The notes below the pieces were generated by a model, which did no database searches, had not been told where the DNA came from, and was given only the letters and a program-made list of their open reading frames with translations. Positions 17,394 to 40,986 of a DNA stretch of 64,000 nt are shown piece by piece. Numbering within the stretch: the first letter of the stretch is position 1; every line of letters begins with the position of its first letter. Source of the DNA: a virus. The translations under genes were made by a program, and so were the position numbers. The stretch lies in IMG/VR virus record IMGVR_UViG_3300027721_000734, positions 1-64,000 of that record. One strand, written 5' to 3'.

Positions 17394-18019
17394 TGGAAAG
17401 ATTTAATATTATAAATTACTTGATAGAAAACAATAATTATAAAAGTTTTTTGGAAATTGGGACTCAGGAGCGTATCAATTTATCCAAAATAATTATTGAT
17501 AAAAAAATTAGTGTTGACCCAGACCCAAATGTTAATAGTGATTTTAATATATCTTCCGATGATTTTTTTAAACAAAATATGGATAAATTTGATATTATTT
17601 TTATAGATGGACTACATCATGCCGATTTTGCGTATAGAGATATAATAAATTCATTAAAAATATTAAATAAAGACGGTTGCATTGTTGTTCACGATGTTAT
17701 ACCACATTCATATGAAAGCCAACTAATCCCGTTAGAAAAAACATTGTTAAACGGTACATCAATATGGAATGGTGATGTTTGGAAAACATGGATTAAATTA
17801 AGAACTGAAAGAAAAGATTTAATGATGAAAGTTGTGAATACCGACCACGGATGTGGTATCATACATTTAACAAACTATAATAACGGAGATTTTTTAGAAT
17901 CTTACAATAATGGCTATTATGAATATAATAAAGAACTTATATTACCATCATTAAATCTAATTTCTTCTGACAAATTTTTAACATTATTTAAAACCCCAAT
18001 TTCTAAACAATATGATTAA
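17393..18019 (+). CDS. Class I SAM methyltransferase (Methyltransf_24-like)
   Basis: This 208-residue protein has the compact layout of small class I methyltransferases found in glycan gene clusters. It has a SAM-binding loop (SFLEIGTQERINL), an acidic strand end (ISVDPDPN), and the catalytic-region signature FDIIFIDGLHHADFAYRDI followed by DGCIVVHDVIPHS. The start overlaps the previous stop by one base (TAATG). The last codons overlap the start of the 953-residue gene by 8 bases. It probably methylates a sugar in the same pathway as its neighbours. The substrate is unknown. Confidence 0.75.
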   Translation: MERFNIINYLIENNNYKSFLEIGTQERINLSKIIIDKKISVDPDPNVNSDFNISSDDFFKQNMDKFDIIFIDGLHHADFAYRDIINSLKILNKDGCIVVHDVIPHSYESQLIPLEKTLLNGTSIWNGDVWKTWIKLRTERKDLMMKVVNTDHGCGIIHLTNYNNGDFLESYNNGYYEYNKELILPSLNLISSDKFLTLFKTPISKQYD

Positions 18020-20873
18020 TAATATTTTTAACATAGATAAAAATACCATATCTATTGATGTGATTTGTTTATCAAACACTAAAGATAAAAGTTTTTATAA
18101 TTTAACAAAACAGACATTAGACACCCTTTTACTAACCAAAGGGGGGTATGTTTTTAACATAAAATTAATAGAATCTAATATTGAATCTAAATTTATTTAT
18201 GATTATCCGAATTTAAATGTTATCACACCAAATGAAAAATTTAATTATAATAAATTCTTAAATATTGGGTTGTCATATTGTGAAAGTGAATGGATATTAA
18301 TTATCAATAATGATTTAAAATTTACTGAAGATTGGTTAAATAACATATTAATTGAATATTCTTTAAATCCTAACATAAAATCTTTTTCACCCTTTGAACC
18401 TGAATGGGTTCAAAATTATTATAATGGTTCATTTAAAGAGGGTAATGTTTTTTTAGGTTATAATCCTTGTGTTGAGTTATACGGGTGGTGTATATTAGTT
18501 AAGAAAGAAGTAATAGATTTAATAGGCGGGTTTGATGAACAATTTGAATTTTATTATCAAGATAATGATTATGGTTTAACTTTACAAAAGCACAATATTC
18601 CACATGCTTTAATTAAAAATTCTATAGTTTATCATTTAGTATCTAAAAGCCATGAATTAATACCGAATGATAAACACAAGTCAAACACAAGAATAATGGA
18701 AAAATTATTTAGAAATAAATGGGAAAAATGGGAAAAAATAAATAACTATATGAGAATAACACAAGTAACTCCGGGAGTAATCCCAATACCCCCTAATGGA
18801 TGGGGAGCCGTCGAAAAAATATTATGGTGCTACCATAACGAATTTAATTCTTTGGGTCACGAATGTACTATAAAATATTTAAATGAGGCGTCTACCGATA
18901 ATTCGGATATTATACATATCCATATTGCCAATTTAGCATTAGATGCTGCGGAAAGAGGTGTCCCTTACATCTTTTCATTACACGACCATCATGTTGTTCA
19001 TTATGGAAAAGATTCATTTAACTATCGTCAAAATTTAGAAGCAATACAAAAATCCGTAATTTCATTTTGTCACGCAGAATATTTAGTTGATTACTTTGAA
19101 GGGACTGATAAATTATTCTATCTATCTCATGGAGTGGAAGTTGATTATTTTAAAGTCGATAATTTATATAGAGAAGAACATAAATTACTTTGTATTGCTA
19201 ATAATGGTATTGGAGGTGACTCCTCGTTTGATAGAAAAGGGTTTAGATACGCAATAGAATCTGCAAAAAAATTAAATCTTCCAATAACAATTGCCGGACC
19301 GGAAAACAATAAATTATTTTTTCAACACCACCCTGACTTATTAGAATACGAAAAATTAACGCTATTATTAACCAATTTAAGTGAAGATGAAATTTTAGAG
19401 TTATATAAATCACACTCAATATTTTTACACCCATCCATATTGGAAGCTGGTCACCCAAATTTAACATTATTAGAGGCTGTCTCTTGTGGACTTCCTGTTG
19501 TTGGAACTTACGAGGGGTCTCAAAAGATTGACGGTATGATTATATCCGAAAGAAATTCTGATTTAGTTGCGAATGCTATCTCGGAAATAATAAATCAATA
19601 TAAACATTATGTTGATTTAACCCAAAACAATAGAACTAAATTTGATTGGACAACTATTTGTAAAAGAATGGTTAAAATGTATGAGGTGGTTACCTCAATA
19701 AAAAAGGAATACTCATCTGAAGAAACCAAAAATTTATTTATAAAAAATTTTAACAATATAACGAAAACAATGGGATTAATAAACTCAAATAACCAAAATG
19801 TAAAACCAGATGTAAAATATAATTTTCATTTTGTTAATCAACCTTTTTTTGAAATATTAGGTGATAGTGATAAAAAATTTAATGTTGAATTTTATGATAG
19901 TAGTGGATTGCATCATCACACAGAATTATCGTCAAATATGTGGACTAAAGTAAGTCGAGAATACTTTACAAATTGGTATATCAAAGTTTCTTGTGATAAT
20001 GATATTGTTTTTGAATATAACCTTGATTTAACAAATAGAAGAGTTTTCATTTCTTTTGAATCTAGTTCATTGGGAGATAGTATTGCTTGGATACCTTATG
20101 TTTTAGAATTTAAAAAACAACATAATTGTATTGTAATTGTCTCAACTTTTTGGAATAAATTATTTAAAAAATCCTATCCTGAATTAGAGTTTATTGAACC
20201 GGGTTCAACGGTACATAATTTATTTGCCTTATACAGAATTGGGTGGTTTGAAAACGAAACAAAAGAACCGTTTTACCCTAATACAATACCATTACAAAAA
20301 ACAATCACAAATCTTTTAAAATTAGAACATTCCGAAATTAAAGCAACACTTGATTTTACACCTAAAGTAAAACCTATGGTTGAGAAGTATATAACAATTG
20401 CCGATGAATCAACCGCAGGATTAAAACTATGGAATAACCCAAAAGGGTGGCAAGAACTTATTGATTATTTAACTGGATTAGGTTATAAAATTATTAATAT
20501 ATCTAAACACGGTGGAAATTATAAAAATGTTACAAAATTAAAAGACACATCAATAGAGAATACAATGAACTATATTCACCATAGTGAATTCTTTATTGGG
20601 TTATCAAGTGGATTGTCTTGGCTTTCATGGGCGTTAGGAAAACATGTTGTTATGATTTCTAATTTTACCGAATCTGACCATGAATTTACCACAAACTGTA
20701 CTAGAATTACAAATGATTCTGTATGTAATGGATGTTGGAATAAGTCAGAATTTAGATTTGACCGTGGTGATTGGAATTGGTGTCCCGAAAATAAAGGAAC
20801 ACCTCGTCAGTTTGAGTGTCACAAATCAATAACCTCTGAAATGGTGATAAAACAGATACAACATTTATTATAA
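18012..20873 (+). CDS. GT2-GT4-BAHT fusion: autotransporter-type O-heptosyltransferase
   Basis: This 953-residue protein contains three glycosyltransferase units. Residues 1-245 are GT2-like (WILIINNDLKFTEDWL, then GGFDEQFEFYYQDNDYG). Residues 246-570 are GT4-like (MRITQVTPGVIPIPPNGWGA, HPSILEAGHPNLTLLEAVSC). Residues about 603-953 match the bacterial autotransporter heptosyltransferase (BAHT, TibC/Aah) family along the whole domain: SLGDSIAWIPYVLEFKKQH, LYRIGWF, LWNNPKGWQEL and FFIGLSSGLSWLSWALG. The family's cysteine metal finger follows: Cys905, Cys908, Cys924 and Cys936, the last in GTPRQFECHKSIT. In known members this finger binds iron and the enzyme adds heptose to Ser in strand-loop-strand repeats of AIDA-I-type adhesins. 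It ends the operon at a bidirectional terminator. Domain identity is strong. The target in this phage is inferred. Confidence 0.85.
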   Translation: MINNIFNIDKNTISIDVICLSNTKDKSFYNLTKQTLDTLLLTKGGYVFNIKLIESNIESKFIYDYPNLNVITPNEKFNYNKFLNIGLSYCESEWILIINNDLKFTEDWLNNILIEYSLNPNIKSFSPFEPEWVQNYYNGSFKEGNVFLGYNPCVELYGWCILVKKEVIDLIGGFDEQFEFYYQDNDYGLTLQKHNIPHALIKNSIVYHLVSKSHELIPNDKHKSNTRIMEKLFRNKWEKWEKINNYMRITQVTPGVIPIPPNGWGAVEKILWCYHNEFNSLGHECTIKYLNEASTDNSDIIHIHIANLALDAAERGVPYIFSLHDHHVVHYGKDSFNYRQNLEAIQKSVISFCHAEYLVDYFEGTDKLFYLSHGVEVDYFKVDNLYREEHKLLCIANNGIGGDSSFDRKGFRYAIESAKKLNLPITIAGPENNKLFFQHHPDLLEYEKLTLLLTNLSEDEILELYKSHSIFLHPSILEAGHPNLTLLEAVSCGLPVVGTYEGSQKIDGMIISERNSDLVANAISEIINQYKHYVDLTQNNRTKFDWTTICKRMVKMYEVVTSIKKEYSSEETKNLFIKNFNNITKTMGLINSNNQNVKPDVKYNFHFVNQPFFEILGDSDKKFNVEFYDSSGLHHHTELSSNMWTKVSREYFTNWYIKVSCDNDIVFEYNLDLTNRRVFISFESSSLGDSIAWIPYVLEFKKQHNCIVIVSTFWNKLFKKSYPELEFIEPGSTVHNLFALYRIGWFENETKEPFYPNTIPLQKTITNLLKLEHSEIKATLDFTPKVKPMVEKYITIADESTAGLKLWNNPKGWQELIDYLTGLGYKIINISKHGGNYKNVTKLKDTSIENTMNYIHHSEFFIGLSSGLSWLSWALGKHVVMISNFTESDHEFTTNCTRITNDSVCNGCWNKSEFRFDRGDWNWCPENKGTPRQFECHKSITSEMVIKQIQHLL

Positions 20874-39768: not shown

Positions 39769-40986
39769 ATGAAAGAAAAAATTAATGTATTAGTTCTACC
39801 ATCAGATACTTCAGGTGTTGGAAAATTTCGTTCGGTAGACCCTCATGTATTCTTACAAAACCAATATCCTGATGATTTTCATGTGGATATAGATTATACC
39901 CCAAAGATAGATGATATTAATTATTGGAAAAAATATCAGATAGTTCACGCTCATAGAACTATTGGTAATAATTACGAAGTGTCGGCACAAATAATTAAAG
40001 GATTAAAAGAATTGGGTATTATTGTTATTGTTGACATTGACGATTATTGGTTACCGACAGTAGACCATCCAATTCATAGTATTATCGTAAAACATAAAAT
40101 TCACGAGAAAATTGTTGCAAACTTAAAAGAAGCCAGTTATGTTACAACGACAACTGATTTATTTGCAAACGAAATTCGTAAGCTTAATAAAAATGTATTA
40201 GTTTTACCAAACGCTATAAATCCAAAAGAAGGTCAATTTAATCAACCAACACCACCATCAGATAAGATTAGAGTTGGATGGCTCGGAGGTAGTTCACACA
40301 TTGAGGATTTAAATTTGTTGGGGAATTTTGTTCAAAAAAATCAAGACATAAATGATAAATTACAATATGTTATTTGTGGTTTTGATATTAGAGGTACCGT
40401 AACGGAAATGAATCCACAAACAGGTGAAGAAAGAAAAAGAGATATATTACCTCACGAAACTGTTTGGACTAAATATGAAGATATTTTCACTAACAAGTAT
40501 AAAACCATAGATGAGAACTATAAAAAACATTTATTAGAGTTCAAAGAAAGAGAATTTTTATCAACAAGTGATTTACCATATGTTAGAGTTTGGACAAAAC
40601 CTGTTACAACTTACGCTATGAATTATTCAAAATTTGATATATCTTTGGCACCAATTAAAAATCATATATTCAATAGGATGAAATCTCAATTAAAGGTGAT
40701 TGAGGCTGGGTTTTATAAAAAAGCGTTAATTGCTTCAGAAATCGGACCTTACACCATTGATTTAAAACATTGTTTGAAAAATGGTAATTTTACAGATGGT
40801 AACGCAATTTTAATACCCGAGAATAGAAATCATAGTGATTGGTCTAAATCAATTAAAAAATTGGTTCAAAACCCTGAAATGATTACTGAATTAGGCGAGA
40901 GATTATTTGAAACTGTTAAAGACAAATATGATTTAAAAAATGTGACCGTTACAAGAGCAGAATTTTACAAATCTTTAATTAAATAA
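39769..40986 (+). CDS. Glycosyltransferase (GT4-like, GT-B fold)
   Basis: This 405-residue protein begins KINVLVLPSDTSGVGKFRSV and continues with an acceptor-domain segment VDIDDYWLPTVDHPIHS. The second Rossmann domain opens with VLPNAINPKEG and VGWLGGSSHIEDLNLL. Near the C-terminus LAPIKNHIFNRMKSQLKVIEAGFY provides the usual GT4 donor-binding glutamate region. No membrane segment is visible. It starts a new transcription unit after the terminator at 39707 and is followed 3 bases later by the exonuclease gene, so a sugar transferase and DNA enzymes share one operon. The acceptor is unknown. Confidence 0.75.
   Translation: MKEKINVLVLPSDTSGVGKFRSVDPHVFLQNQYPDDFHVDIDYTPKIDDINYWKKYQIVHAHRTIGNNYEVSAQIIKGLKELGIIVIVDIDDYWLPTVDHPIHSIIVKHKIHEKIVANLKEASYVTTTTDLFANEIRKLNKNVLVLPNAINPKEGQFNQPTPPSDKIRVGWLGGSSHIEDLNLLGNFVQKNQDINDKLQYVICGFDIRGTVTEMNPQTGEERKRDILPHETVWTKYEDIFTNKYKTIDENYKKHLLEFKEREFLSTSDLPYVRVWTKPVTTYAMNYSKFDISLAPIKNHIFNRMKSQLKVIEAGFYKKALIASEIGPYTIDLKHCLKNGNFTDGNAILIPENRNHSDWSKSIKKLVQNPEMITELGERLFETVKDKYDLKNVTVTRAEFYKSLIK

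Follow-up and report, generated by a model that had tools for sequence, protein, structure and literature searches.

The BAHT family of protein O-heptosyltransferases is known from bacterial adhesin systems, in which TibC glycosylates Ser, but not Thr, residues of repetitive β-helical adhesins (PMC4358343). Mutation of TibC Arg286 or of the tip of its thumb abolishes or largely reduces the activity, and the thumb is required for the active dodecamer (PMC4358343). Among phages, mycobacteriophages are reported to have glycosylated virions (Freeman et al. 2023, as cited in PMC12619734), and work on the glycosyltransferase clusters of pelagimyophages stresses GT8 enzymes and changes of the host O-chain, with heptosyltransferases going unmentioned (PMC7029224). 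A phage-encoded BAHT was not found in the open-access papers that we searched. The gene described here lies in the window, the 64,000-nucleotide stretch (positions 1‒64,000) of IMG/VR record IMGVR_UViG_3300027721_000734. The complete record (113,476 bases) encodes a T4-like major head protein, a portal, and a terminase, and the source of the gene is a T4-like tailed phage. The fusion gene, its modules, and its key residues are located as follows.

18012‒20873, + strand: fusion gene, 953 residues, with GT2-like, GT4, and BAHT/TibC-type modules
18012‒18746, + strand: GT2-like N-terminal module, residues 1‒245 (phrog_22332, 6e-14)
18747‒19811, + strand: GT4 module, residues 246‒600 (PF00534, 47.9 bits, cut-off 26.4)
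19812‒20873, + strand: BAHT/TibC-type module, residues 601‒953, with a β barrel at residues 601‒670
20076‒20078, + strand: catalytic Asp689 (TibC D110), from the alignment; invariant in all viral rows
20508‒20546, + strand: site (residues 833‒845) at which the TibC β-hairpin thumb (tip F265, V266) is deleted, from the alignment
20562‒20564, + strand: Thr851, replacing TibC Arg286 (adenine contact), from the alignment
20724‒20819, + strand: putative four-cysteine iron finger (C905, C908, C924, C936), aligned with TibC C339, C342, C358, and C370

Judged from its sequence, the C-terminus of the fusion protein is a TibC/BAHT domain preceded in the chain by a clear GT4 domain and a weaker GT2-like domain. 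The original prediction had named the motifs SLGDSIAWIPY, LWNNPKGW, and GLSSGLSWLSWALG and the four cysteines as TibC hallmarks; all are present, and the cysteines align with those of TibC. The profile check proposed with it gave a significant match of TIGR04414 to residues 622‒951 (277.5‒279.3 bits; curated cut-off, 200), and TibC (PDB 4rap) is the best PDB sequence match of the protein (phmmer, E = 5e-48). Superposition of an AlphaFold model, built from a 45-row alignment, revealed the TibC fold as well: the 21 top PDB structure matches are all TibC chains, with a TM-score of up to 0.83 (normalised to TibC). The pLDDT is mostly 90‒98 across residues 601‒953, and the strands of a TibC-like N-terminal β barrel at residues 601‒670 exceed 90. 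In the GT4 module, PF00534 covers residues 407‒542 (47.9 bits against a gathering score of 26.4), and the GT4 enzymes BshA and MshA rank after the TibC chains among the structural matches. The N-terminal residues 1‒245 are poorly modelled, and PF00535 (GT2) scores 21.4 bits, under its cut-off of 23.3. However, a glycosyltransferase family, phrog_22332, matches residues 11‒240 (6e-14), and the module is ~30% identical to glycosyltransferases of Gordonia phages. Of the GT2-GT4-BAHT architecture proposed earlier, the BAHT and GT4 domains and the phage origin hold, while GT2 is the weaker assignment.

We mapped the TibC residues onto the fusion protein with the roles given in PMC4358343. In the alignment, the ligand residues Thr226, Lys230, and Trp305 of TibC correspond to T801, K805, and W870, and the position of TibC P300 is occupied by Ser, as in AAH. 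The iron finger is assigned from its cysteine residues and is thus a predicted one. Among the 105 viral and 89 bacterial rows compared, the Asp, Lys, Trp, and four Cys are practically invariant, and the viral rows keep them throughout, one truncated row excepted; the homologues are not ordinary GT9 enzymes devoid of the cysteine finger.

Two other elements of TibC are missing. The Arg286 position is Arg in 75 of the 89 bacterial rows, whereas 77 of the 105 viral rows have Thr and only 7 have Arg. The thumb segment comprises 23 residues in the fusion protein versus 33, and its length is 22‒24 in 85/105 viral rows and 33 in 66/89 bacterial rows; since the bacterial rows were drawn from the 80 loci closest to the viral alignment, these contrasts are, if anything, understated. 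Consistently, the AlphaFold model contains no thumb hairpin. The phage BAHT is thus not a copy of TibC, and most phage versions lack both the thumb and Arg286. The earlier description as an autotransporter-type enzyme is correct for the family but not in the literal sense. Without its thumb, the phage enzyme would not be expected to assemble into a dodecamer of the TibC type, and because Arg286 and the thumb are absent, both donor and assembly may differ from those of TibC. Two features regarded as essential in TibC can thus be lost even though the residues of the catalytic site and the iron finger remain invariant.

The system had been thought to be without a described counterpart in phages, but it is not unique. 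A profile scan gave at least 585 viral BAHT relatives in IMG/VR, and 410 related stretches occur in genome contigs, the top one being 48% identical. GT4 is present in 48/48 scanned fused proteins of the window's clade, where GT4 and BAHT normally occur fused. Larger forms of the family gain methyltransferase, FkbM, pyruvyl transferase, or extra glycosyltransferase domains. Named carriers are uncultured phages of 735 kb and 636 kb and Microcystis phage Mel-JY01, whose 1226-residue GT4-BAHT protein (WWT39291.1, locus L190; CDS 4750‒8430 of PP395634.1) is annotated as an FkbM methyltransferase.

A quick tree built from 103 rows places the window protein, represented by the near-copy L001 (951 of 953 residues identical), in a 47-row group of 46 viral rows and one MAG (SH-aLRT 99), and TibC in a separate bacterial group of 28 rows. 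A single clade of all viral BAHTs was rejected because the tree requires eight label changes. Some MAG contigs fall on the viral side of the tree and may be phage. L033, L036, L038, and L063 are contigs assigned to MAGs of bacteria or archaea; they carry BAHT fusions of 748‒996 residues and are possibly phage contigs binned with their hosts.

The module set is conserved even where the fusion is split. L007 carries three overlapping genes in unchanged order (GT2, 6306‒6995; GT4, 6989‒8008; BAHT, 7998‒9062), and L015, L137, and L138 have GT2 apart from a GT4-BAHT fusion. GT2 is an ORF of its own, of ~230 residues, in these four loci, as is GT4 in L007, L008, L185, L179, and L188. The fixed GT2-GT4-BAHT order, fused or split, supports a single pathway.

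Around the fusion gene, the window contains further modifying enzymes and, beyond them, fibre-like genes.

13508‒16225, + strand: 905-residue GT4-domain protein (PF00534, 37.9 bits), opening the co-directional cluster
16230‒17393, + strand: 387-residue methyltransferase-like and GT2 protein (PF00535, 27.5 bits; PF04989 and PF13578 under cut-off)
17393‒18019, + strand: 208-residue methyltransferase (PF13578, 34.3 bits), its 3' end overlapping the start of the fusion gene
20900‒21775, − strand: 291-residue GT9-like protein (PF01075, 18.6 bits, under cut-off)
21786‒22313, − strand: APS-kinase-like protein, a possible PAPS supply (PF01583, 72.5 bits)
22225‒23046, − strand: sulfotransferase (PF13469, 55.6 bits)
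23645‒25819, − strand: 724-residue BspA-type LRR_5 solenoid protein (PF13306, 197 bits), a possible but not a general acceptor
25897‒31413, − strand: 1838-residue fibre-like protein (PF01391, 76.3 bits) with (GSSGTSG)n collagen-like tracts and STIGGG..N.ASG β-roll-like repeats

Several of these neighbours recur near viral BAHT genes: a sulfotransferase at 12/53 viral loci versus 0/37 controls, an APS kinase at 11/53 versus 2/37, and a GT9-like gene at 9/53 versus 0/37. The APS-kinase-like and sulfotransferase genes of the window overlap (21786‒23046), and the pair is found again beside other viral BAHT genes, a hint that phages make sulfated glycans. A second glycosyltransferase/methyltransferase group lies beyond the structural genes at 39769‒48614 (e.g., 42819‒43574, 43546‒45069, and 47802‒48614). 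FISUMP (Fib_succ_major) domains occur in large phage proteins at 1072‒5706 and 9963‒11675, one of which has long PTPTxTPT linkers; these domains are a possible sign of a host in the Bacteroidota or Fibrobacterota.

A giant repetitive gene, in most cases collagen-like and poor in proline, lies downstream of viral BAHT genes, usually in convergent orientation. Most of the records are genome fragments; the comparison took in 40 viral loci, made non-redundant and each with 5 kb or more of sequence downstream, and used 8.5-kb stretches of the same genomes as controls. An ORF rich in Ser, Thr, Gly, and Asn (at least 300 residues, at least 50% S+T+G+N) was present downstream in 28/40 loci, upstream in 1/39, and in 2/74 controls (Fisher p = 5e-15, with the loci treated as independent and relatedness not corrected). 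Ser/Thr-rich collagen-like tracts gave a similar picture (27/40 downstream, 2/39 upstream, and 1/74 controls). About 30% of the loci have no such fibre gene inside the flank, and the examined stretch of Mel-JY01 contains no collagen tracts. Conversely, among contigs of at least 60 kb picked solely by a (GTS)n collagen DNA pattern, 10/19 carry a BAHT, versus 2/14 contigs selected for a portal protein.

In 5,984 collagen-like triplets, X is Thr in 52% and Ser in 32%, and Y is Ser in 76% and Pro in 0.3%. STIGGG/NASG-type repeats occur in 12/47 BAHT records, each of which has a copy ~1‒7 kb from the BAHT gene; these β-roll repeats matched neither the YadA head nor any other Pfam family. By eye, several of the repetitive proteins end in a look-alike of the S74-type intramolecular chaperone, as expected for tail fibres. 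The 1838-residue protein, with both repeat types, is the prime acceptor candidate in the window. The same virus encodes a second protein with (GSSGTSG)n tracts, of 591 residues (L030, 4715‒6490; record positions 68715‒70490), near the portal gene. LRR_5 solenoids were rejected as a general acceptor, being present in only 2/48 records. The strand-loop-strand acceptor of the original prediction did not hold up: TIGR04415 autotransporter target repeats are absent from this virus and from the 47 other phage records, although the E. coli positive control was matched, and Ser-rich collagen-like or β-roll fibres adjoin the enzyme instead. The adjacency is a linkage and not an identification of the substrate, and it may partly be due to a general gathering of glycosyltransferase clusters in fibre regions.

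With a BAHT module next to long genes for Ser-periodic fibres, the fibre is the suggested acceptor, and Ser, the residue modified by TibC, also dominates the Y position of the collagen-like tracts. The constant presence of GT4 and GT2 hints at elongation of the chain, and the sulfotransferase/APS kinase pair at a sulfated cap. We incline slightly towards the reading that the fusion acts in the cytosol as an O-glycosyltransferase for the Ser/Thr-rich fibres of its own phage, with BAHT starting, GT4 and GT2 extending, and neighbouring enzymes capping the glycan. The sequence-based analysis establishes the family and fold of the enzyme, its intact catalytic and finger residues, the conserved set of modules, and the link to fibre genes; its activity, its substrates, the sequence of the reactions, and their advantage are inferred as follows. 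In the cytosol, late in infection, the BAHT module would transfer the first sugar onto Ser in repetitive tracts of the fibre, putatively collagen-like Gly-Thr/Ser-Ser triplets or β-roll repeats. Lengthening of the glycan would then fall to the GT4 and GT2 parts of the fusion; that one polypeptide starts it on Ser and then extends it, as first proposed, is plausible. Neighbouring methyltransferases and the sulfotransferase/APS kinase would cap it. The resulting glycan may shield the fibres from antagonists or stabilise a proline-poor collagen.

The donor would probably be a nucleotide-activated heptose out of the host pool. Our search for heptose-synthesis genes gave no match to GmhA or RfaE-II in this virus, so the virus would have to draw its donor from the host, and with Arg286 lost, a different nucleotide sugar is conceivable. 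ADP-heptose genes were rejected as a constant companion of BAHT, since GmhA occurs in 1/48 records and RfaE-II-like matches occur in 6/48, all under the family cut-off. The 636-kb phage LR756504.1 (L192) has GmhA at 430182‒430640 (251 bits, over the curated cut-off), ~27 kb from its BAHT gene.

Alternatively, the enzyme may alter the host surface (LPS or O-chain) and thereby block superinfection, as glycosyltransferase clusters beside the tail fibres of aquatic phages, the pelagimyophages, have been interpreted (PMC7029224). LPS heptosyltransferases belong to the GT9 relatives, and the protein does match the LPS heptosyltransferase I model TIGR02193 weakly. However, this score is 17.4 bits against a cut-off of 185.3, TIGR02195 (LPS heptosyltransferase II) gave no listed match, and the family matched at 277 bits is a protein O-heptosyltransferase with β barrel and iron finger. 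Since the adjoining gene is also specifically Ser-rich and repetitive, we consider a host-surface target unlikely. A host protein, such as an autotransporter or another adhesin, is a still less probable acceptor: bacterial adhesins are the substrates of the known BAHTs (PMC4358343), but the genes to which the phage enzyme is linked encode fibres of the phage rather than host-type adhesins, and TIGR04415 repeats occur in 0/48 records. Glycans on modified bases of phage DNA, possible in phages with several glycosyltransferases (Pyle et al. 2024, as cited in PMC12619734), are the most improbable product, as the scanned proteins (a subset of the ORFs) include no base-modifying enzyme and the TibC-like architecture and fibre linkage favour a protein acceptor.

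Glycosylation of the phage's own fibres is thus the reading that we retain, and the gene arrangement suggests that phages sugar-coat these structures. In a more specific and still tentative form, a widespread, previously undescribed phage system may use a thumbless TibC-type enzyme, fused to glycosyltransferases that extend the chain, to decorate the Y-position Ser of proline-poor, collagen-like (Gly-Thr/Ser-Ser)n fibres; the glycan may be sulfated. If true, sugar, not hydroxyproline, would stabilise and shield viral collagen, and phages would commonly coat their fibres by means of an enzyme family otherwise familiar from the adhesins of bacteria. Such a role would give a testable explanation of why aquatic phages carry so many glycosyltransferases of unexplained purpose near their fibre genes, and it would offer natural single-chain glycosyltransferase assemblies together with long Ser-rich collagen substrates.

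Compared with TibC and AAH (BAHT, TIGR04414; PDB 4rap and 4rb4), the phage enzyme shares the N-terminal β barrel fold, the catalytic Asp, the putative iron finger, the Lys and Thr near the phosphate, and the Trp, and it has the Ser of AAH at TibC P300. Unlike them, it lies behind GT4 and GT2 modules, has the thumb deleted and Arg286 changed to Thr, comes without an autotransporter or TIGR04415 repeat, and belongs to a separate clade of the tree. The GT2 enzymes of actinobacteriophages resemble the N-terminal module (the Gordonia phage identity above) and share the proposed end product, a sugared virion protein. However, the acceptor proposed for the BAHT fusion is different, and the actinobacteriophages bearing related GT2 glycosyltransferases gave no BAHT match. 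BclA of Bacillus is a glycosylated collagen-like spore protein with GPT triplets. It shares with the phage fibres the collagen-like triplets and hydroxyl residues as proposed sugar acceptors, whereas the fibres belong to a phage rather than a spore, have GTS and GSS triplets, and are candidate acceptors only. As in the pelagimyophages, which are aquatic phages, the glycosyltransferase cluster adjoins fibre genes, but the pelagimyophage clusters are described with an emphasis on GT8 and the host O-chain (PMC7029224), whereas the cluster in the window includes a BAHT enzyme.
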